Source of the DNA: Leptotrichia hongkongensis
Lineage (GTDB): Bacteria; Fusobacteriota; Fusobacteriia; Fusobacteriales; Leptotrichiaceae
DNA length: 64,000 bases
Direction: 5' to 3'
Assembly: GCF_007990635.1 (NCBI RefSeq)
Contig: NZ_AP019846.1
Coordinates: 1,240,001-1,304,000, forward strand
Below the pieces are notes generated by a model. The model did not search any database and was not told the origin of the DNA. It saw only the letters and a list, made by a program, of their open reading frames with translations. The position numbers and the translations under genes are program-made. Numbering within the stretch: position 1 is the stretch's first letter; each line of letters starts with the position of its first letter. Below, in pieces: positions 6,601 through 63,092 of this stretch.

Positions 6601-6762
6601 CTTTTTTATTTTCGTAGGATTGCTCATTGCCGCAAATCCTACAACCTATGGCTAGTCTCCGACATTTTTCTGCACTGACAAAAAACTCGCTATGCTCAAA
6701 CAGTTTTGCCAGCACAGAAAAATGCTCCGACGGATTAGTTTATATTATGCTCTGTTTAAAAA
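6601..6762. repeat. dispersed repeat family 2, copy A
   Basis: Shares long blocks with 59731-59942. It holds two hairpins: GTAGGATT...AATCCTAC, and a larger one closed by CATTTTTCTG...CAGAAAAATG with inner AAAACT/AGTTTT. Weaker similarity to the second locus continues to about 6850 (TTTAGTATTA). Short ORFs across it are repeat sequence, not genes. Confidence 0.85.
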
Positions 6763-51539: not shown

Positions 51540-52754
51540 TTAATCAACCAATGTCGGGTTAAAATCTTCAAGCCAAGGTAGTCCAAATTTATTTAATGCT
51601 TCCATAAATGGATCTGGATTCATTTCTTCTACATTAAACACTCCTGGCTTTTTCCATTCACCAGTAAGTACCATTGCAGCTCCAATCATCGCAGGCACTC
51701 CTGTCGTGTAAGAAATCGCTTGTGAGCTAACTTCCTTGTAACATTCCTGATGATCGCATACATTGTATACATAATAAGTTTTTTCTACGCCATCTTTTTT
51801 ACCTCTAAAAATATTTCCAATGTTTGTCTTACCTTTTGTTCTAGGCCCAAGCGAAGCTGGATCAGGTAATACTGCTGTTAAAAATTGCAATGGAACAATT
51901 TTCTTTCCTTCAAATTCTATTGGCTCAATTGAAGTCATTCCAACATTTTCAAGCACTTTTAAGTGAGTCAGGTAACTTTGTCCAAAAGTCATAAAGAATC
52001 TAATTCTTTTAATACCTTTAATATTAACTGCAAGCGATTCTAATTCTTCATGGTGCAGTAAGTACATATCCTTTTCACCAATTTGTGGGAAATTGTATAC
52101 TCTTTTAATTTCCATCGGTTCTGTTTCTACCCATTTTCCATCTTCCCAGTAACTTCCATTAGCTGTCACTTCTCTAATATTAATTTCTGGATTAAAGTTT
52201 GTTGCAAACGGGTAACCGTGATCTCCTGCATTTGCATCAAGAATGTCAATGTAATTTATTTCATCAAAATAATGCTTTTGTGCATATGCTGAAAACACTC
52301 CAGTAACACCTGGATCAAATCCACTTCCTAAAATGGCAGTAATCCCAGCCTTTTCAAATTTTTCCTTATACGCCCATTGCCATTTATACTCAAATTTGGC
52401 TGTGTCCAAAGGCTCATAGTTTGCTGTATCCAAATAATCAGTCTTAGTTTCAAGACAAGCATCCATAATTGTCAAATCTTGATATGGCAAAGCCACATTT
52501 ATCACAATATCAGGCTTATATTCATTAATCAATGCCACTAACTCAGACACATTATTTGCATCCACCTTTGCAGTTTGAATCTTAATTCTTCCAGCATATT
52601 TACTTTTTTCAATTCTTTCCTTGATTTCATCGCATTTTGCCTTTGTACGGCTAGCTATCATAATTGAACTAAATACTTCCGAATTTTGTGCACATTTGTG
52701 ACATACTACATTTGACACTCCTCCAGCCCCGATTACTAATGCTTTTTTTCCCAT
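51540..52754 (-). CDS. carboxynorspermidine synthase (saccharopine-dehydrogenase fold)
   Basis: 404 aa. KKALVIGAGGVSNVVCHKCA is the Rossmann loop; YLDTANYEPLDTAKFEYKWQ, ILGSGFDPGVTGVFSAYAQK and DHQECYKEVSSQAISYTTGV match carboxynorspermidine dehydrogenase (CASDH). It condenses aspartate semialdehyde with putrescine or diaminopropane to give carboxy(nor)spermidine. The decarboxylase NspC, its usual partner, is not in the window. Indicates an alternative spermidine route. Confidence 0.92.
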   Translation of the reverse strand: MGKKALVIGAGGVSNVVCHKCAQNSEVFSSIMIASRTKAKCDEIKERIEKSKYAGRIKIQTAKVDANNVSELVALINEYKPDIVINVALPYQDLTIMDACLETKTDYLDTANYEPLDTAKFEYKWQWAYKEKFEKAGITAILGSGFDPGVTGVFSAYAQKHYFDEINYIDILDANAGDHGYPFATNFNPEINIREVTANGSYWEDGKWVETEPMEIKRVYNFPQIGEKDMYLLHHEELESLAVNIKGIKRIRFFMTFGQSYLTHLKVLENVGMTSIEPIEFEGKKIVPLQFLTAVLPDPASLGPRTKGKTNIGNIFRGKKDGVEKTYYVYNVCDHQECYKEVSSQAISYTTGVPAMIGAAMVLTGEWKKPGVFNVEEMNPDPFMEALNKFGLPWLEDFNPTLVD

Positions 52755-52916
52755 TAATTTTCCTCCTCAATATAAATTTATTCTTCTAAATATTATTTCA
52801 AAATTTTTCTAACCAGTTATTTTCAATAATATCACTCTATTTTCCTTTGTTCATATTATACTGTAAAATCTTTATTCTGTAAATTACTTTTTTTTACTTT
52901 TTTCTATTCTGTATAC

Positions 52917-52957
52917 AAAAAATACCCAGGCAATATCACACTACTGTCTGAGTATCT
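52917..52957 (-). terminator. terminator of the DUF3290-DUF421 pair
   Basis: In transcript sense ATACTCAGACA pairs with TGCCTGGGTAT (G-U and one mismatch), then TTTTTT. Confidence 0.75.
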
Positions 52958-52968
52958 TTTATTTAAAA

Positions 52969-53601
52969 TTATTTTCTCACAATAAAAAGTTTATCATCGC
53001 CATCATATTCAACTAAAAAAATATCATTAATATCAGAAACATTATACTTTGCAAGTTCTTCCAAAAGCCATTTGTCATCTTTTCCAATATGTTCAAGATT
53101 TTCTTGCAGAATTTTTCCTTCCGAAATTAGTAAACTTGAATAATTTTCATCATTTTTTTGTATAACAATTAATTGTCCATTTGATTCCATAAATGCATCT
53201 TCAATCTCCGATACTTTGAAAATCCCTTTTGTTCTTAATTTCGTATAGAAATCAGGAATAGAAAGAGTTGCCTGAGCAAAATTTTCCGTTATCATTTTTC
53301 CGCCTTTTATTAAGTATACAATTTGCCCGTCTATCATTTTTTTTACATTTTTGTTTGAATTTTTTAGAAAATCTATTGTTGTCATTAACAGTCCCCATAT
53401 TAACAGTACTATTAAAAACTGAACTATTGTTATGCTCGGATTGTAAATTACACCACCAATGATTCCCCCAAGAACATAGTTTCCTATCTGATCTTCTGTT
53501 GAAGTCGGTGCCAGCTGGCTTCGTCCGTTTAAATTCATAAATACTACTAAAGCAATAAATCCAATTGTAAGTTTTATCGCTACAGGAATTATAAAATCCA
53601 A
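52969..53601 (-). CDS. DUF421 (YetF-like) membrane protein
   Basis: 210 aa. TTG start. Two to three membrane segments in the first 85 residues, then the DUF421 cytoplasmic domain: MIDGQIVYLIKGGKMITENF, a LRTKGIFKVSEIEDAFMES stretch and LIVIQKND. YetF/YdfR/YrbG-type proteins form sporulation- or envelope-related complexes with unclear function. Paired with DUF3290, a known companion, 55 bp upstream. Confidence 0.85.
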   Translation of the reverse strand: MDFIIPVAIKLTIGFIALVVFMNLNGRSQLAPTSTEDQIGNYVLGGIIGGVIYNPSITIVQFLIVLLIWGLLMTTIDFLKNSNKNVKKMIDGQIVYLIKGGKMITENFAQATLSIPDFYTKLRTKGIFKVSEIEDAFMESNGQLIVIQKNDENYSSLLISEGKILQENLEHIGKDDKWLLEELAKYNVSDINDIFLVEYDGDDKLFIVRK

Positions 53602-53656
53602 ATTACATCATCTCACTTTCTTTATTATCTTTCCTTTTAAAAAATAAGAAATTTCG

Positions 53657-54100
53657 CTATTCTTTAAATGTTTTAATTTCATCTACGTAAGGAACTGTCA
53701 TTTGTTCAACCAGAATATTATTGTCTACCCAATGAATCTGATAAAACTTATCCCTTATTTTATAAACTGTATGTTCTGTTATTTCGGGAGTATTTATAAA
53801 AATCTCATTTTCTCCAACTTTAAATTTTTCCGCCAGTTTTTTTATAACGCTTGCTGAATTTTTATAAACTTTTTCTCGATTATTATTAGCTCTGTAATTT
53901 TCAAAATGATATAATCCAAATAAAAAAATAATCATTAAACCAAGCATGCTAAGCTGCTTATCTCTCAAAGAAATGCTCCCTTTAAACCATTTCCAGAATG
54001 CAAATAACACAAATGCAATTACAAAAATAATCATAATAAGAAAAAACTTGTCAATTACAATCTTTTTATTTTCCAAATAAATAAAATTATAAAATTCCAT
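53657..54100 (-). CDS. DUF3290 membrane protein
   Basis: 147 aa, AAAGGAG site. A short N-terminal strand (MEFYNFIYLENKK), two membrane segments (about 18-40 and 52-66), then a soluble domain with FKVGENEIFINTPEITEHTV and FYQIHWVDNNILVEQM. DUF3290 genes regularly sit before DUF421 genes; the two likely form one membrane complex. Confidence 0.85.
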   Translation of the reverse strand: MEFYNFIYLENKKIVIDKFFLIMIIFVIAFVLFAFWKWFKGSISLRDKQLSMLGLMIIFLFGLYHFENYRANNNREKVYKNSASVIKKLAEKFKVGENEIFINTPEITEHTVYKIRDKFYQIHWVDNNILVEQMTVPYVDEIKTFKE

Positions 54101-54292
54101 ATTTCTATCATTTTCTCCTTTCCAAACAATTAAAATAATAGGAATTATATCATTTTTTTTTTGAAAAGTGAATATTTTTTTAAAGTTTAACTTAAAATAT
54201 TTGTGCTCTTAATATTTAATCGCAGGCAATTTTTTTATAACTGTTCTTCTCATGTTCTAAGCTTTCGTTCGATTTCAAAAGAAATGTGCATA

Positions 54293-54321
54293 TTTACAAA
54301 TAAGTTTAATGAGGTTATAAT
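54293..54321 (+). promoter_or_regulatory. promoter of the lipid-like gene cluster
   Basis: TTTACA (54293-54298), 17-nt spacer, TATAAT (54316-54321), 42 bp before the first gene. 54122-54292 shows no gene. Confidence 0.8.
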
Positions 54322-54362
54322 ATAATGAAAAATATAATTTTTTAGAAAAGGAAATAAAGGTT

Positions 54363-57080
54363 ATGAAATATATTTATAATATTAGTACATTAAAAAATCA
54401 CAATGATAACAATGTGCTTGAAGAAAAAATAGGGAAAAAAGCCCAGAATTTATTTGAACTGGCAATTCAGGGATTTAATGTGCCAAATTTTTCAATAATT
54501 ACAAATAAATATTTTAAAGAAGTTATATTAAACGAAATAAAGGAAAATGGAAGAAATACAGAAAACTATTATGAAATAAATGACTGGAACAGCATTTTTA
54601 ACGAAAATGCAGAACAAAAAATAGAAAATATAATAAAAGTTATAACAGACCACAAAATCAGCAAAGACTTTCAGGAAGAAATAGAAAGTACAGTAAAAGA
54701 TAGAAAATATTATGCCGTAAGATCATCTTCAATAGAGGAAGACAGCAGCAGCTTTTCTTTTGCAGGACAATTCGAGACTTTTCTTTATATCAAAAAGGAA
54801 AATATGATTGAAAAAATAAAAGATGTGTGGATTTCATCATTTTCTTCACATGTCATGAAATATAGAAAAGAAGGAAGCATAAATAATGAAATAAATGTCC
54901 CTGCCGTAATAATTCAGGAAATGATAAATTCTGACAAGGCTGGAGTTGGATTCAGCGTAAATCCCGTAAATGGAAATTATGATGAAGCTGTTATTTCTGG
55001 CACTTATGGACTAGGAACAAGTATTGTTGACGGAGACGAAAATGGAGATTTGTTTATTTATGACAAAAAAACGAAAAAAATTAAAAAGGAAATAAGAACA
55101 AAAAAGATAAGACAGGTTTTAGATTTTGAAAATCAGAAAATAAAAACAGAAGAAATAAATATTGAAGAGGAAGTTTTAACTAACGATGAAATACATGAAC
55201 TTGGTGAAAACATAATAAATATTGAAAAATATTATGGAAAGCCTCAGGATATGGAATGGGCGTTTGAAAAAGGAAAACTGTATATATTGCAGGCAAGGCC
55301 CATAACTACATTGGAAAAAACAAATGAAAAAACGTCCAATACAATAATATGGGATAACAGCAACATCGTAGAAAGCTATCCCGAAATTACATTGCCACTC
55401 ACATTCAGCTTTATAAGAAAGGCATATTCCGATGTCTATAAAAGATTCTCTGAAATAACAGGAGTGCCTGCCAAAGTTGTAGAAAGTTATCAGGTTGTAT
55501 ATGACAATATGCTGGGCCTGCTAAAAGGAAGAGTCTACTATAACCTTATAAACTGGTACAAGCTTCTAATGTTATTTCCAAATTCCAAAGGCAACAGCAA
55601 GTTTATGGAACAAATGATGGGAGTAAAAAAGGAACTGTCAGAAGAAAATCTTAACGAAAACCTTCTGGAAGCAGAAGAGAAAATGACAGGCTGGGAAAAA
55701 TTTAGGAATAGGCTGGAAAAATATAAGGCAGGATTTACACTATTTATGAATATGTTTCTCATAGAAAAAAAAGCAGACAAATTTTATAAGATTATAGATG
55801 AAAATCTCAATGGAAAAAATAGTAACCTTGACAACAAAAATATAAAAGAACTGAAAAAATACTACAAGTTTCTTGAGAATAAATTTCTAAAAAATTGGGA
55901 AATCCCTATTATAAATGACTTTCTTGTGATGGTATGGTTTGGACTTTCAAAAAAGATGGCAGAAAAATATATAAAAGAAAATTTTGAAGAAAAACATAAT
56001 ATTCTTATCGCTCAGGAAGGAAATGATATGATAAGCGTTGAACCTTCAAGATATATAAAAAAAATGAGCAATATGCTAAGGCAGGATAACTCTTTACAGA
56101 ATGAAATAAAAACTATAATAAAAAATAATGACGAATCAAGGATTAATGTGCTAAAATTAACTGAAAATACAAAGTTTAATTTTCTTTTTAATGAATATAT
56201 GGAAAAGTTTGGTGACAGAACCGTCCACGAACTGAAACTGGAAGCACCTACATTAAAGGAAGAACCAATATTTCTGATAAAAATGATATTTTCTCTTTCA
56301 ATGACAGAAAATATTCAGGAACACACTAAAAGAAACATATCAGAAGAACAGAAAAAAATATATGACAATCTAAAAATAAGTCCTGTAAAGAAATATTTAT
56401 TGAAAAAAACTGTATTTTATGCAAAAAAATTTATAAAATTGAGAGAAAATCTAAGATATGAACGGACAAAGGTTTTTGGAACAGTAAGAAAAATTATGAA
56501 AAAAATGGGAACTCATCTGAAAAACGATAACCTTATAAATAATGAAAAAGATGTATTCTACCTTACTGTCGATGAAATTTTTGGACTTGTTGACGGCTCA
56601 ATAATTGATGTTGATTTAAAAAAACTTATAGAACTGCGAAAAGAGCAATACAAGAAATACGAAACAGAGGCAATTCTCCCTGACAGATTTTTAACGAAAG
56701 GATTTCTAGGAGAAAATTTTTATTATGAAGATTTGGCAGAAAATTCACAACTGGATGAAAATACTTTAATGGGAACAGGATGCAGCAAAGGAATTGTCAA
56801 AGGAAAGGTAAAAGTTGTATTAAATCCGATGAATACGGAAGTTGAAGATGGAGATATAGTTGTAACAAAATCCACAGATCCAAGCTGGGTTATGGTTTTT
56901 CCTTTATTAAAGGGGCTTATAGTGGAAAAGGGGAGTCTTTTGTCTCATAGTGCAATTATTTCACGTGAAATGAATATACCTGCCATAGTTGGAGTGCAGG
57001 GAGTGACAACAGCTTTAAAAACAGGAGATATAGTTCAATTTGACGGAAGTACGGGAATAATAAAAAAATTAGACGACTGA
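54363..57080 (+). CDS. rifampicin-phosphotransferase-like dikinase
   Basis: 905 aa. N-terminal PEP-synthase-type ATP-grasp domain (about 15-315: AVRSSSIEEDSSSFSFAGQF, PVNGNYDEAVISGTYGLGTS, KLYILQARPITTLE). A large helical middle domain (about 330-780) follows, then a swivelling phospho-His domain with the catalytic His near residue 862 (EKGSLLSHSAIISREMNIPA). The PEP-binding TIM barrel of true PEP synthase is missing, so the architecture is that of rifampicin phosphotransferase: it would move the beta-phosphate of ATP to an acceptor bound by the middle domain. The acceptor is unknown; the neighbours suggest a lipid. Confidence 0.85.
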   Translation: MKYIYNISTLKNHNDNNVLEEKIGKKAQNLFELAIQGFNVPNFSIITNKYFKEVILNEIKENGRNTENYYEINDWNSIFNENAEQKIENIIKVITDHKISKDFQEEIESTVKDRKYYAVRSSSIEEDSSSFSFAGQFETFLYIKKENMIEKIKDVWISSFSSHVMKYRKEGSINNEINVPAVIIQEMINSDKAGVGFSVNPVNGNYDEAVISGTYGLGTSIVDGDENGDLFIYDKKTKKIKKEIRTKKIRQVLDFENQKIKTEEINIEEEVLTNDEIHELGENIINIEKYYGKPQDMEWAFEKGKLYILQARPITTLEKTNEKTSNTIIWDNSNIVESYPEITLPLTFSFIRKAYSDVYKRFSEITGVPAKVVESYQVVYDNMLGLLKGRVYYNLINWYKLLMLFPNSKGNSKFMEQMMGVKKELSEENLNENLLEAEEKMTGWEKFRNRLEKYKAGFTLFMNMFLIEKKADKFYKIIDENLNGKNSNLDNKNIKELKKYYKFLENKFLKNWEIPIINDFLVMVWFGLSKKMAEKYIKENFEEKHNILIAQEGNDMISVEPSRYIKKMSNMLRQDNSLQNEIKTIIKNNDESRINVLKLTENTKFNFLFNEYMEKFGDRTVHELKLEAPTLKEEPIFLIKMIFSLSMTENIQEHTKRNISEEQKKIYDNLKISPVKKYLLKKTVFYAKKFIKLRENLRYERTKVFGTVRKIMKKMGTHLKNDNLINNEKDVFYLTVDEIFGLVDGSIIDVDLKKLIELRKEQYKKYETEAILPDRFLTKGFLGENFYYEDLAENSQLDENTLMGTGCSKGIVKGKVKVVLNPMNTEVEDGDIVVTKSTDPSWVMVFPLLKGLIVEKGSLLSHSAIISREMNIPAIVGVQGVTTALKTGDIVQFDGSTGIIKKLDD

Positions 57081-57126: not shown

Positions 57127-58266
57127 TTGAAAAGTGAAGTAAAAGAAAATAAAGTTGATTTTTCTTTGATAAGGTATTCCCAATGCTGGGAAGATACAGA
57201 AATATTGCTTGAAAGCCTTGATATAAATGAAAAAGATATATGCTTTGGAATTTTGTCGGCGGGAGATAATGTATTTTCGATGCTTACTAAAAATCCTCAA
57301 AAAATAGTGGCTCTTGATATAAGTTTTCCACAGATAGCTCTTGCTAAACTTAAAAGAGAAGTATTTAAAAGTTTTTCGTATGAGGAAATGTTAAAGTTTA
57401 TGGGGATAAAAAGTTCATCTGAAAGAATTGGGATGTATGAAAAGATAAGGTCAAATCTTGAAGAAAGTGTGAAAAATTACTGGGATTTTAATAAGGAAGC
57501 GATTGAAAATGGTATAATTCATATTGGAAAATTTGAAAAATTTTTTAAGATTTTCAGGAAAAGGATACTTCCTTTTGTGCATAATAAAAAAAGAATTGTA
57601 AAACTGCTTGAAAAAAAATCAAGGCAGGAAAGAACTGAGTATTATAACAGTCATTGGAATAATTTTAGATGGAAACTGATGTTTAAACTGTTTTTTTCCA
57701 GATATGTGGTCGGAAAACTTGGAAGAGACAAGGAATTTTTTAGATATGCAGAAAAAAATATTTCTGAAGAAATGAAGGAAAGAAGCAGATACGCCCTTTG
57801 TGAATTGGATAGTTATGAAAATCCTTATATTTACTACATTATGACAGGAAATTACCGTTTGGACTGCCTGCCTTACTTTTTGCGAGAAGAAAATTTTGAA
57901 AATATCAAGAAAAATCTTCATAAATTGGAAATTGTCCAGAATTCTGTTGAGGAATATCTTGATGGAATAGATTTTAAAATAAACAAATTTAATTTAAGTG
58001 ATATATTTGAGTATATGTCTTTGGAAAATTACAAAAAATTAATGAAAAAAATTTATGATAATGCTGATAATAATGCAATCTTGGCATACTGGAACTTAAT
58101 TGTGGAGAGAAATTCATCAAAATTAGAATCTGTAGAAGGAGAAGAAGATATAAAAAACAAATTTCATAGGTTGAAAGAATTTGATAAAAGCCTTCACGAA
58201 AAGGACAAGACATTTTTTTATACTGATTTTGTAGTTGAAAAGGTGATAAAATATGGAAATAGTTAA
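57127..58266 (+). CDS. DUF3419 / BtaA-like SAM-dependent aminocarboxypropyltransferase
   Basis: 379 aa from a TTG with AGGAGG 8 nt upstream. FSLIRYSQCWEDTEILLESL, GILSAGDNVFSMLTKNP (SAM loop SAGDN, about 44-48) and VALDISFPQIALAKLKR are the DUF3419 hallmarks. The founding member BtaA moves 3-amino-3-carboxypropyl from S-adenosylmethionine to diacylglycerol in betaine-lipid synthesis. No BtaB N-methyltransferase is visible here, so the product could stop at a homoserine-ether lipid or the acceptor could differ. 46 bp after the dikinase; its end overlaps the next gene by 14 bp. Confidence 0.88.
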   Translation: MKSEVKENKVDFSLIRYSQCWEDTEILLESLDINEKDICFGILSAGDNVFSMLTKNPQKIVALDISFPQIALAKLKREVFKSFSYEEMLKFMGIKSSSERIGMYEKIRSNLEESVKNYWDFNKEAIENGIIHIGKFEKFFKIFRKRILPFVHNKKRIVKLLEKKSRQERTEYYNSHWNNFRWKLMFKLFFSRYVVGKLGRDKEFFRYAEKNISEEMKERSRYALCELDSYENPYIYYIMTGNYRLDCLPYFLREENFENIKKNLHKLEIVQNSVEEYLDGIDFKINKFNLSDIFEYMSLENYKKLMKKIYDNADNNAILAYWNLIVERNSSKLESVEGEEDIKNKFHRLKEFDKSLHEKDKTFFYTDFVVEKVIKYGNS

Positions 58267-59584
58267 AATGATAGTTGTTCTAGCAGCTTTTATCCTGTTT
58301 TTCCTTTTGTTGAATCAACTTGAAAAAAGTGAAAAGCTAAATTCAGAACTTATACGAAAAATTCTGCACATAGGCTCAGGAATCGGAGGGCTGGCACTTC
58401 CCTTTATATTTGAAAAAAAAAGTTCAGTTATAATGCTTGGAGCAGTTTTTCTTATGTTACTTATTTCCATTAGGATAGTAAAGCATAAAATAACAGGATT
58501 TAAAAAAGTGCTGGAAACAAAAAACAGGAAAACTTTCGGAGATATATACTTTATTATAAGTATTCTTGGATTGTGGATTGTATCAAATGAAGATAAGGTA
58601 ATGTACGCTCTTCCGCTTATAATTCTTATGTTTTCCGATGCCTTTGCGGCTCTCATAGGGGAATTTTACAGCAAGTATAAATTTAATACAGGATTTGGAA
58701 CAAAATCGATAGAAGGCTCGGCAACATTCTTTCTGACAACATACTTCATATGTATAAACTTCTTTCTGTTTTTCAGTGATATCGGAAGTATAAACATTGT
58801 ACTTGTTTCTCTTCTGCTAAGTATCCTTACAATGATTCTTGAAGTTATTTCATGGAACGGACTGGATAATCTTTTTGTGCCGCTTTTTGTGTATCTATTT
58901 CTAAGATTAAATTTATATTTGACAGCACAGGAGCTGATGTATAAATTTTGGGTAATAATGATACTTTTTATAATTATAATATTGAATAGAAAAAAGACTA
59001 CGCTTACAAGAGTTGCACAAACTGCAAGTTTATTTTTTCTTTACATCGTTATGATAATTGGAGGAATAAAATGGCTTATTCCACCACTAATAATGTATCT
59101 TGGCTATTATCATTTCACGCCAAAGGTAAGAGGGCAAGTAAAAGATTCTCTCAGAGGACTTTTGACAATAGCATTTACAACAGCAATCTGGCTTGCTATG
59201 AGCATCATACTTGATAAAAATAAAATGTATCTTATTTATATATTCACCTTTTCACTGCATTTTGGAATTATAAATTTAATAAGAGATAACGCTGGAAATA
59301 TAAAACGGGAAACATTTAGAATGAATTTTTTGATGGGAAGCATTGGAAAGGCATTTGCTTTCTTTATAATAAATTATCTTGCCTTGTCAAGAATTTGGGA
59401 TTTTAAAATGCTAATTGGAATAGTAATTTTTATATTTGGCGGAATATTTATTTACGAAACAAGTATGAAGATTTTTTATATTATTGAAAAGGAAAAGGAA
59501 CTTAGTGGAGAAACAAAGGTATTTATAGCTTCTGGAATAGTTTTTGCCTGTTCTATATTATTACTAGGATTAGGAATGTTATAA
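58253..59584 (+). CDS. SEC59/phytol-kinase-like membrane protein (CTP-dependent lipid kinase)
   Basis: 443 aa, about twelve membrane segments. The first 225 residues hold the family motifs: SELIRKILHIGSG, SDAFAALIGEFYSKYKF and GFGTKSIEGSATFF, as in dolichol kinase, phytol kinase VTE5 and yeast CTP-dependent diacylglycerol kinase. The C-terminal half is a second hydrophobic domain (from about 240) with LGYYHFTPKVRGQVKDSLRG, not part of the minimal enzyme. Probably phosphorylates a prenol or diglyceride at the membrane. Coupled to the BtaA-like gene by overlap. Confidence 0.82.
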   Translation: MEIVKMIVVLAAFILFFLLLNQLEKSEKLNSELIRKILHIGSGIGGLALPFIFEKKSSVIMLGAVFLMLLISIRIVKHKITGFKKVLETKNRKTFGDIYFIISILGLWIVSNEDKVMYALPLIILMFSDAFAALIGEFYSKYKFNTGFGTKSIEGSATFFLTTYFICINFFLFFSDIGSINIVLVSLLLSILTMILEVISWNGLDNLFVPLFVYLFLRLNLYLTAQELMYKFWVIMILFIIIILNRKKTTLTRVAQTASLFFLYIVMIIGGIKWLIPPLIMYLGYYHFTPKVRGQVKDSLRGLLTIAFTTAIWLAMSIILDKNKMYLIYIFTFSLHFGIINLIRDNAGNIKRETFRMNFLMGSIGKAFAFFIINYLALSRIWDFKMLIGIVIFIFGGIFIYETSMKIFYIIEKEKELSGETKVFIASGIVFACSILLLGLGML

Positions 59585-59730: not shown

Positions 59731-59942
59731 CTTTTTTATTTCCGTAGGATTGCTCATTGCCACAAATCCTTATCTTGCAGTAAAGACTTTTTCAGATAAT
59801 CAAAATATTTGGCAAGATTGCTACGCAATAACCTATGGCTAGTCTACGACATTTTTCTGCACTGACAAAAAACTCGCTATGCTCAAACAGTTTTGTCATC
59901 ACAAAAAAATGCTCCGACAGATTAATTTATACCATACTCTGT
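59731..59942. repeat. dispersed repeat family 2, copy B
   Basis: Matches 6601-6762 but carries an extra segment of about 57-60 bp (roughly 59771-59828) after CAAATCCT. Both flanks and the large CATTTTTCTG/CAAAAAAATG hairpin are kept, the latter with one mismatch. It separates the two halves of the gene cluster; 59585-60080 has no gene. Confidence 0.85.
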
Positions 59943-60080
59943 AAAAAAATACATCTTGAATTATTTGAAAATACTAGATTTATATCCTTTAATTAAAAAA
60001 GTTTGTAATAAATTTATTGTTTAAACGGGATTTAGTATAATATAAATAAAATAAATTATCAAAAAGGAGAAAATTTAAAA

Positions 60081-61111
60081 ATGAAAATCAAGCGATACAC
60101 AATAACAGAAAATAATCGAATAAATAAAAACTATTTAGAAAAATATATTAGGGAAAATAAGATTTCACAAAATGAAATTCCAAAAATACAAATAGAACGT
60201 CCATCTGAAATTATTGCTTTTTATAATGAAAACGAAGAAATGGCTGGAAGCCTTAATTTATGGCACAATCGTCCAAATTGCAATGAAAAGGCAACATCAT
60301 ATATTGGAAATGTAAATATTTTGGAAAAATATCGAAAAAATGGAACAGAAATATTTAATGAAATTTTTGAAAGTCTTAAAAAGATGGTATAGAAACAATA
60401 ATAGGTCCTTTAAATGGAACTACTTGGAATACATATCGTTATGTTACTGACAAAGGACATCGTTCGCCATTTCTTATGGAACCTTGGAATGAAGACTATT
60501 ATGTGGAACTCTTTGAAAAAATTGGTTTTAAGCCACTTACCTACTATATTTCAACAATAATGGAAAATATGAATCCTGTTCAAAGGGGGCATTTATCTAA
60601 AAAAATTGAAAAGTTGAAAAAATTTGACTATTATAAGGATATAACAGTAAAATCTGCAGAAAATGAGGATTTAATCACTATACTGAATAAAGTTTACGAC
60701 TTGACAATTGAGGCATTTAAAAATAATTTTCTTTATTCTGAATTGGATAGAGAAATATTTTTGAAAATGTATATGAGCTATGAAGATAAAATTGTAAAAA
60801 AATTCTTTAAAATGCTTTATCTAAAAGAAGATGAACTAATTGGATATGTATTTGGAATACCTGATTATGCCGAACTTCAATACAAAGAAAAAGTAGAAAC
60901 TATGATTCTTAAAACGATTGCAATTTCTCCCAAATATAATGGAAAAGGGATGGGATATATTCTGATAGATGAACTTGTAAAGGAAGCAGAACATTCAGGC
61001 TATAAAAATGTGATTTATGCCTTGATGCACGAAAAAAATATATCAAAAAATATCGGCTCACTTCTAGGAGATGAGTTAAGAAGATATGCCCTGTTTATAA
61101 AGGAACTTTAA
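60081..61111 (+). pseudogene. GNAT-family protein split by a -1 frameshift in an A-run
   Basis: A first frame (60081-60392) ends in EIFNEIFESLKKMV-stop. Adding one A to the AAAAA run near 60376 gives SLKKDGIETIIGPLNGTTWN and continues through GHRSPFLMEPWNEDYYVELF into the frame that ends at 61111. The joined protein is about 343 aa with two GNAT-like parts; the C-terminal one has AISPKYNGKGMGYILIDELV (acetyl-CoA loop). Could be a dead gene or a slippage-switched (phase-variable) one. AAGGAG site upstream. 17 bp before the ligase. Confidence 0.8.
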
Positions 61112-61128: not shown

Positions 61129-62682
61129 ATGACAATAATTGACAAAATTAAAGATTTGAGAAAACAATATCCAGACAATACAGCATTATTTGATTTAAAA
61201 ACAGGAAATAAGATTACTTTTACTCAAATTGATACAAAATCAGATGAAATTTGCAGTTACTTGACACAAAAAGGATTTAAAAAAAGAAATAAAATCGTTG
61301 TTTTTGTCCCCATTGGCATAGAATTTTATCTTATTCTGACTGCAATATTTAAAATGGGACTGCAGGCTGTGTTTATTGATCCGTATGCTGGTATTGAGCA
61401 TATAAATAAATGTTGCGAAATGATTTCCCCTGACGGAATAATTGGAAGCGGAAAAATACTTTTAAAAGGATTCTTTTTAAAAGGAATCAGAAAAATTGGC
61501 AAAAAAATTAATTATATTAAAATGATGGAACATTCTGAAAAACTTTCGATATATGAAAAAAATAAAAATCAGAAAAAAATTCAAAACGAAAAAATTGACG
61601 GAAGTACACCTGCTCTTATCAGTTTTACGAGCGGGAGTACAGGCTTTCCAAAAATTATTATGAGAACGCATGAATTTTTACTTGGACAGCACAATGTGCT
61701 TGAAAAAAATCTAAAATTTGAAAAAGAAACAGCTGTTTATTCTTCATTCCCGATATTTCTTCTTTCACATATGGCAACAGGAACAACTACCTTTATTCCT
61801 GATTTGAACTGGCGAAAACCTGTCGAGTCAAATTTTGGGAATATTGTTAAGCAAATAACAGAAAATAATATACAAAACATCATCTTGCCTCCTGCCATAT
61901 TTGAAAACATCGTGAAATTTTGCAAAGATGAAAAAATAATGCTTGAAAATGTTCAAAAGGTATACACAGGTGGAGCTCCTGTCTTTTACAGCCTTATGAA
62001 AAAGATTAAAGATGTTTTCGCAAATGCTAAAATTATAGCCTTGTATGGAGCGTCAGAGGCTGAACCCATATCAGTATTAAATTTTGAATACATAACAGAA
62101 GAAGATATTGAAAATATGAAAAATGGTGATGGACTTCTCGCTGGAAAAATAGTTAATGAAATAGAACTTAAAATAGAAGAATTAGAAAAAACGTCTGAAA
62201 AAAATAAAATTTTAAAAGATAACAATGTTGAAGATTTTTCAGCATTAAAAGGTGAAATACTTGTAAAAGGAGAAAATGTAGTAAACGGATATTTAAATGT
62301 TGAGAAAAAACCAAATGAAAAATGGCATAGAACAGGAGATATGGGATATATTAACAAAAAAGGTCAACTTATACTGCTAGGAAGAGTTAAAGGGCGAATA
62401 CAGATTGAAGAAAACATTTATTATCCTTTTACTGTAGAAACTGCCTTTTCATTTTGTAAAAACTTAAAAAAATCAGTCCTTACTTCCAAGAATAATAAAT
62501 TATATCTCTTTGCCGAAAGAAACCCTGGATTTAAAGGAAATTTATCTGAGGATAGTGAAATTAAAGAACTAAAAGAAAAATTTGGAATATTTAAAATAAT
62601 CGAAATTGAAATTCCAATGGATAAAAGGCATAACAGCAAGACGGATTATAAAAGGCTGGAAGAAATAGTTGAAAAAATTTAA
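61129..62682 (+). CDS. AMP-forming acyl-acid ligase
   Basis: 517 aa ANL superfamily enzyme. FTSGSTGFPKIIMRTHEFL (phosphate loop), YGASEAEPIS (A5 core), WHRTGDMGYINKKGQLILLG (A7/A8) and a C-terminal Lys in HNSKTDYKRLEEIV (A10). The overall shape is that of fatty-acid/peptide-type or OleC-like ligases. It activates a carboxylate with ATP, as acyl-AMP, for transfer to CoA or another acceptor. Substrate unknown; no carrier-protein gene is visible. Confidence 0.88.
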   Translation: MTIIDKIKDLRKQYPDNTALFDLKTGNKITFTQIDTKSDEICSYLTQKGFKKRNKIVVFVPIGIEFYLILTAIFKMGLQAVFIDPYAGIEHINKCCEMISPDGIIGSGKILLKGFFLKGIRKIGKKINYIKMMEHSEKLSIYEKNKNQKKIQNEKIDGSTPALISFTSGSTGFPKIIMRTHEFLLGQHNVLEKNLKFEKETAVYSSFPIFLLSHMATGTTTFIPDLNWRKPVESNFGNIVKQITENNIQNIILPPAIFENIVKFCKDEKIMLENVQKVYTGGAPVFYSLMKKIKDVFANAKIIALYGASEAEPISVLNFEYITEEDIENMKNGDGLLAGKIVNEIELKIEELEKTSEKNKILKDNNVEDFSALKGEILVKGENVVNGYLNVEKKPNEKWHRTGDMGYINKKGQLILLGRVKGRIQIEENIYYPFTVETAFSFCKNLKKSVLTSKNNKLYLFAERNPGFKGNLSEDSEIKELKEKFGIFKIIEIEIPMDKRHNSKTDYKRLEEIVEKI

Positions 62683-62708: not shown

Positions 62709-63092
62709 ATGAAAACAGAAGCAAAAGAATTAATTCAGGAAGGATTAAAATTATTTTCATTATATGACAGGAGAGCTTTGAAAAGATTTTATCTTTCAGC
62801 AGAAAAAAGCGAGGCAGATTTATCATATCTCGATGAAAAGTATCAGACTCATATGCGTTCTAAAGCAAGAGGACTGTTTTTTGATTTTTTAGGGGGAATT
62901 ATAGAAGGCATTGCAAGTTCAGGAAGTCCGTTTAGTCATTCTCTGGATAGAGCAATGACCATTGAAAAGCGTGAACAATATAATGAAAAAAAATTAATAT
63001 TAAGGTATAAAATTAAAGATTTTATTGAAAGTACACCAGTAGACAGTAATACAGGATATTTACTTTCCATGATTGACTTCTATTGTCAGTAA
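62709..63092 (+). CDS. unknown 127-aa protein
   Basis: Good AAAGGAAA site. Mostly helical and basic: KELIQEGLKLFSLYDRRALK, KSEADLSYLDEKYQTHMRSK. A Gly-rich amphipathic stretch (ARGLFFDFLGGIIEGIASSG) could touch a membrane. No signal peptide. Sits between the ligase (26 bp) and the UbiA-like gene (37 bp), so it belongs to the same unit. Not recognised. Confidence 0.6.
   Translation: MKTEAKELIQEGLKLFSLYDRRALKRFYLSAEKSEADLSYLDEKYQTHMRSKARGLFFDFLGGIIEGIASSGSPFSHSLDRAMTIEKREQYNEKKLILRYKIKDFIESTPVDSNTGYLLSMIDFYCQ

Follow-up and report, generated by a model that had tools for sequence, protein, structure and literature searches.

A rifampicin-phosphotransferase-like dikinase, probably with a substrate other than rifampicin, in a conserved cross-phylum gene cassette

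The window analysed here is a stretch of 64,000 nucleotides of Leptotrichia hongkongensis DNA (G000:C1 1240001-1304000). Towards its end, an open reading frame preceded by an AAGG-type ribosome site encodes a protein of 905 amino acids from an ATG start without an internal stop, and is therefore intact. The protein is 92% identical to the dikinase of Leptotrichia sp. oral taxon 879, and it is kept in 12 other Leptotrichiaceae genomes at 58-92% identity and in two more at about 47%, so the reading frame is not a chance one. The features of the locus, with window coordinates unless stated otherwise, are as follows.

54293..54321, + strand: promoter-like site ahead of the operon (TTTACA-17-TATAAT, 11/12 consensus match; weak)
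54363..57080, + strand: RPH-superfamily three-domain dikinase (ATP-grasp 21-326, middle domain about 326-797, His swivel 828-898, catalytic His862)
55338..56753, + strand: middle, putative acceptor-binding domain of the dikinase, with a predicted RIF-BD fold and a diverged pocket (AF2 model and PDB matches)
57127..58266, + strand: DUF3419/BtaA-like protein (PF11899, 7.3e-63), homologue of SAM:diacylglycerol 3-amino-3-carboxypropyl transferase
58253..59584, + strand: 443-aa membrane protein whose N-terminal half carries invariant residues and is VTE5/dolichol-kinase-like
60081..61111, + strand: GNAT-type acyltransferase gene (PF00583), frameshifted at about 60378
61129..62682, + strand: OleC-like AMP-binding ligase (PF00501, 1.1e-39)
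62709..63092, + strand: 127-aa protein with no Pfam match, in Leptotrichia-group cassettes only
G000:C1 1303130-1304155 (L088 9631-10653), past the window end: UbiA prenyltransferase (PF01040, 2.1e-10)

The promoter-like site is weak because the whole promoter scan gives no more matches than shuffled sequences. The GC skew flips from negative to positive at about 52000-56000 in the window, along with a switch in gene direction. A dispersed repeat of ~210 bp occupies 59740-59960, between the membrane-kinase and GNAT genes, and has a second copy in the window at about 6610-6762; the 54 matching pieces listed fall in roughly 40 places in the genome, the longer matches at 71-96% identity. Compared with L003 and L102, where the GNAT gene is intact, one base is missing here from an A-run, which leaves open reading frames of 103 and 211 amino acids. 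The frameshift could be genuine or a sequencing artefact, and because of it the pathway may be incomplete in this genome.

In the dikinase, Pfam assigned PPDK_N to residues 21-326 (1.8e-66) and PEP-utilizers to residues 828-898 (2.9e-23). There was no Pfam match for a PEP-binding barrel, and the phospho-His swivel is C-terminal, not central, which rules out a PEP synthase or PPDK. An earlier note on this DNA had read the protein as ATP-grasp and phospho-His domains without a PEP barrel, and both the Pfam domains and a whole-length fold match to the rifampicin phosphotransferase RPH-Lm (PDB 5HV1, 5FBS, 5FBT and 5FBU) bear this out. In a whole-protein AlphaFold2 model built from 37 homologues (mean pLDDT 82.6), the six best PDB matches were all RPH-Lm, the best with an E value of 1.4e-39 over 949 columns. 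The whole-protein TM scores were low (0.35-0.47), probably owing to a different domain orientation in the model, and for this reason the middle domain (residues 326-797) was modelled separately (pLDDT 83.8, pTM 0.83). In the PDB, significance was reached by the six RPH-Lm entries alone, with E values between 1.5e-7 and 3.3e-6, TM scores on the query of 0.53-0.62 and sequence identities of 12-14%; the next match had an E value of 0.2. Because only RPH-Lm matched with E below 1e-3, a new fold is ruled out; judged by the model, the middle domain has the RIF-binding fold in diverged form. The same note had taken this domain to be unlike the rifampicin-binding one, which holds for its sequence but not for its fold, predicted to be that of the RIF-binding domain of RPH-Lm.

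We then compared the substrate pocket across an alignment of 29 cassette proteins, RPH-Lm and eight other RPH proteins, using the rifampicin and phosphate contacts of RPH-Lm as listed in PMC4844700. K26, R120, E298, Q310, R312, R694, E695 and H862 (window numbering), which correspond to K22, R117, E297, Q309, R311, R666, E667 and H825 of RPH-Lm, were invariant in all 29 cassette proteins. By contrast, most of the rifampicin and phosphate contacts were replaced across the family: Q336 of RPH-Lm became V or A, Q337 became E in 29/29 proteins, Y351 became I or A, T354 mostly A or V, M359 mostly L, V368 mostly Y and F479 mostly L, whereas T523 was always S and K670 and M673 were always R. In most members L387 was M and L478 was L or F, and P356 and A357 were variable. 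The window dikinase itself is changed at Q336, Q337, Y351, T354, M359, V368, F479, K670 and M673. By domain, identity to RPH-Lm was 29% (ATP-grasp), 14% (middle) and 44% (swivel). Thus, the protein resembles RPH-Lm in domain order, three-domain fold, ATP-grasp residues, the Arg-Glu pair and the catalytic His, and differs in its RIF contacts, middle-domain identity and clade, and in being part of a biosynthetic operon.

Two of the substituted positions, R698 and E337, are also found in PigC (Arg at RPH-Lm position 670 and Glu at 337). As the acceptor of PigC is not a phosphate ester, these residues do not establish that the substrate is anionic. R701 and K625 are invariant in the cassette proteins and absent from RPH and PigC; among the outgroup rows examined, they occurred only in two Streptomyces proteins encoded beside AfsA-type genes.

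Profile scores and phylogeny both placed the dikinase outside the named families. The best NCBIfam model, NF004881 (PRK06241.2-2, labelled phosphoenolpyruvate synthase), matched over the full length at 719 bits, under its cut-off of 883, and the other cassette dikinases scored 699-786 bits, also under the cut-off. Because the PEP/pyruvate barrel is absent, this label is misleading, even though NF004881 is the best full-length family model. The rifamycin phosphotransferase model NF041857 gave 301 bits against a cut-off of 999 and aligned in two stretches, whereas the models for the prodigiosin ligases PigC (314 bits, cut-off 1300) and RedH (309 bits, cut-off 1350) each aligned the whole dikinase in one stretch. 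In a maximum-likelihood tree built quickly from 56 proteins (short search without bootstraps), from which PPDK and PEP synthase were left out on grounds of architecture, 30 cassette proteins formed one group (SH-aLRT 99), ten RPH proteins a separate group (SH-aLRT 100) and two PigC-type proteins a third, distant clade; the two Streptomyces AfsA-neighbour proteins were sister to the cassette group, and one row (X_Rhodoc) sat on a long branch. Rifamycin-inactivating RPH proteins (clade A) were defined by conserved RIF contacts, over 42% identity to RPH-Lm and a position inside its clade. With its contacts changed, its domain identities as given above and a clade of its own, the dikinase does not belong to clade A; nor, with such scores and no prodiginine-cluster genes nearby, is it a PigC/RedH protein. 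The earlier note had proposed a phylogeny against RPH, PEP synthase and PPDK, and had named placement within RPH with conserved RIF contacts as the result that would overturn its reading; the RPH part of that comparison found the opposite. These comparisons suggest that the dikinase, a member of the RPH superfamily, probably has a substrate other than rifampicin.

The greater result concerns the surroundings of the gene. We surveyed 66 genome contigs and 16 further regions and found 64 loci with a cassette-type dikinase. In 56 of these, all six genes of a cassette (UbiA, dikinase, DUF3419/BtaA-like, membrane prenol-kinase-like, GNAT and OleC-like AMP-ligase) were present, co-directional in 56/56 and in only three orders (25, 19 and 12 loci), which are cyclic permutations of one order. 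Some of the eight incomplete loci end at contig edges. By contig title, the carriers include Leptotrichia, Clostridia, Bacillales, Gamma- and Alphaproteobacteria, Verrucomicrobia, Planctomycetes, Elusimicrobia, Tannerella, Trueperaceae and Melainabacteria-type bins, and in an annotated isolate, Roseinatronobacter sp. S2, plasmid NZ_CP121116 carries precisely this set of six. The lipid-type neighbourhood recognized in the earlier note is thus real, very strongly conserved, and extends past the window end. Of 33 Leptotrichiaceae genomes, 15 encode the full-length dikinase, and 14 of these also have a DUF3419 match over the cut-off; no such match occurs in the other 18. The remaining dikinase genome, G022, lacks DUF3419 and the membrane kinase alike, and its orphan cassette-type enzyme (L099 12807-15515) may work by itself. 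Additional proteins were seen at a locus from Verrucomicrobia, with a shorter kinase-like membrane protein next to the usual one (L015 6801-7628), and at one from Planctomyces, where the DUF3419 gene adjoins a second PPDK_N/PEP-utilizers gene (L028 2342-5636). We found no description of the cassette in the literature searched, which took in few subscription papers or bioRxiv preprints and for that reason gives weak evidence of novelty.

Among the partner proteins, the DUF3419 proteins keep the WED and SAGDN motifs, and the PDB search gave no match for the window's copy. The 443-aa membrane protein had neither a Pfam nor a PDB match; in 33 homologues, RK36..H39, D129, K151-S152..G155, E197, D205-N206 and P210 were invariant, residues that we take to be those of CTP-using phytol, dolichol and diacylglycerol kinases. 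The AMP-ligase matched NF006754 (4.7e-95) and two OleC models (6e-59 and 2e-49), all under their cut-offs. UbiA keeps the first Asp motif as DExKDxxxD and has E..RK..E in place of the second; it scored weakly, far under the cut-offs, with prenyltransferase models including those for GGGP geranylgeranyltransferases. The 127-aa protein was present in 10 of the 66 loci clustered.

Thirteen cassette loci, all outside Leptotrichia proper, contain one more gene.

L100 5756-7027, L038 1297-2568, L015 7689-8972 and ten other loci: divergent class I HMG-CoA reductase

One cassette reductase that was scored reached 302 bits with the class I model, under the cut-off of 442, and the enzyme may therefore use another acyl-CoA; it keeps E, K, D and H positions that are presumably catalytic. 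In nine genomes with the MEP enzyme Dxr (G020, G027, G060, G061, G067, G068, G069, G071 and G073), no mevalonate-pathway enzyme other than the cassette reductase was found, neither HMG-CoA synthase nor mevalonate-diphosphate decarboxylase being present; this absence is firmer for G020 and G027, which are 99% complete, than for the other seven, where it is weak because these are draft bins. Leptotrichia encodes HMG-CoA synthase, reductase and decarboxylase elsewhere in the genome and is without Dxr.

A conserved operon of this kind points to a conserved pathway, whose product is probably a lipid-like or isoprenoid metabolite. We consider it fairly likely that the dikinase is a small-molecule enzyme of the RPH superfamily that passes phosphate through His862 to an intermediate of the cassette pathway other than rifampicin. 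The ATP-grasp domain would bind ATP, and the swivel His862 would take its beta-phosphate, releasing AMP and Pi, by analogy with RPH, whose mechanism is given in PMC4844700, and in keeping with the conservation of these residues. His862 would then carry the phosphate to an acceptor in the RIF-BD-type middle domain, beside Arg694, Glu695, Arg698 and Arg701; judging by the cassette, the acceptor would be a cassette-specific prenyl- or glycerol-type intermediate, which would agree with the lipid or lipid precursor suggested as acceptor in the earlier note. In this scheme, the membrane kinase would make the monophosphate of a prenol or similar lipid alcohol, the dikinase would add a second phosphate or phosphorylate a glycerol-type acceptor, UbiA would couple the prenyl group with the acceptor, and the BtaA-like protein, AMP-ligase and GNAT would build an N-acylated aminocarboxypropyl (homoserine-ether) head group. 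Against this proposal, the prenol-kinase assignment comes from motifs, in a protein that matches nothing in Pfam or the PDB; genome G022 encodes an orphan dikinase but neither a DUF3419 protein nor the membrane kinase; and the nearest outgroup dikinases (L140 4669-9423 and L141 5466-9863, from Streptomyces) adjoin AfsA-type and isoprenylcysteine methyltransferase-like genes, neighbourhoods that suggest, from gene content, a dikinase step in a butyrolactone-type pathway and hence different chemistry.

The candidate acceptors, each of them doubtful by itself, are in order a prenyl monophosphate, a glycerol-type hydroxyl and a carbonyl activated for ligation. The first would be a narrower form of the main explanation, in which the CTP-using membrane kinase makes prenyl-P, the dikinase converts it to prenyl-PP and UbiA uses the product. 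By analogy, the set would be a bacterial counterpart of plant VTE5-VTE6-VTE2, with the dikinase in the place of VTE6. VTE2 is the prenylation step that follows VTE5 and VTE6. Both sets bring together a prenol-kinase-like protein, a second kinase and UbiA, although VTE6 is not a dikinase and the cassette adds BtaA-like, GNAT and AMP-ligase genes that this reading leaves unexplained. The shared operon of the kinase-like and UbiA genes argues for it, as does the invariance of R701 and K625 in the cassette and their absence from RPH and PigC, although the Streptomyces AfsA-neighbour proteins have both residues too. Cells, moreover, produce prenyl-PP anyway, and to our knowledge a phosphate instead of a hydroxyl as acceptor would be a first for the superfamily. 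VTE5 and VTE6 carry out plant and cyanobacterial phytol salvage, and the need of prenol salvage for two kinases, with few prenyl-P kinases known (PMC9782597), fits a role of this kind, which we regard as possible but rather improbable.

Also a narrower form of the main explanation, and an unlikely one, is phosphorylation of a hydroxyl on a glycerol- or dihydroxyacetone-type backbone that a DGGGP-synthase-like UbiA would later prenylate; the result would be an isoprenoid ether lipid whose head is of the homoserine type. In diacylglycerol, it is the glycerol on which BtaA acts, and AfsA uses a C3 ketone phosphate; the presence of a BtaA-family protein in the cassette and of AfsA beside the sister dikinases therefore fits a glycerol-type acceptor, as do the UbiA matches to GGGP geranylgeranyltransferase models. 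These matches, however, are far under the family cut-offs, and we noticed no G1P dehydrogenase or GGGP synthase within the cassette. The betaine-lipid pathway itself is a partial parallel: its BtaA has a counterpart in the DUF3419 protein next door to the dikinase, but the cassette has no BtaB-like gene and has five other conserved genes instead.

It is distinctly unlikely that the dikinase works as a ligase in the manner of PigC and RedH, phosphorylation serving to activate a carbonyl or enol for the coupling of two cassette intermediates, with no phosphate kept in the product. The three-domain architecture, the whole-length profile matches, which exceed that of the RPH model, and the shared E337 and R698 favour such chemistry, whereas PigC forms a distant clade of its own, the scores are far below the cut-offs, and the cassette has no prodigiosin genes and no evident pyrrole or aldehyde chemistry. 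A merely diverged rifamycin-inactivating phosphotransferase is very improbable, despite a three-domain fold and catalytic core identical in kind to RPH, given the low NF041857 score, the family-wide replacement of RIF contacts, the separate clade, the fixed biosynthetic operon and the finding that a protein of the distant clade N conferred no resistance (PMC4844700).

To return to the dikinase itself, its known relatives include the two-component RPH relatives HpeHI, CreHI and PpsAB, which act on phenols (Dexter et al., PMC12167813); the HpeI structure 9GOJ matched the ATP-grasp domain of the dikinase in the PDB search. They share its ATP-grasp and swivel logic but are split in two proteins and belong to aromatic catabolism. 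More broadly, and tentatively, the cross-phylum cassette of six or seven genes might make an isoprenoid or prenyl lipid, as yet undescribed, whose head is an N-acylated aminocarboxypropyl group; the RPH-type dikinase would supply an activated prenyl diphosphate or a phosphorylated backbone for it, and a repurposed HMG-CoA-reductase-like enzyme a mevalonate-type block.

The cassette is a more interesting object than the dikinase alone. Its carriers include Leptotrichia of the human mouth, Clostridia of the gut and many phyla from the environment. Standard annotation misses its product, since it gives the genes labels such as PEP synthase, DUF3419 and hypothetical. RPH relatives have been described as a large family of dikinases whose substrates are little explored (Stogios et al., PMC4844700), and the cassette subfamily gives one such group a fixed, testable pathway context.
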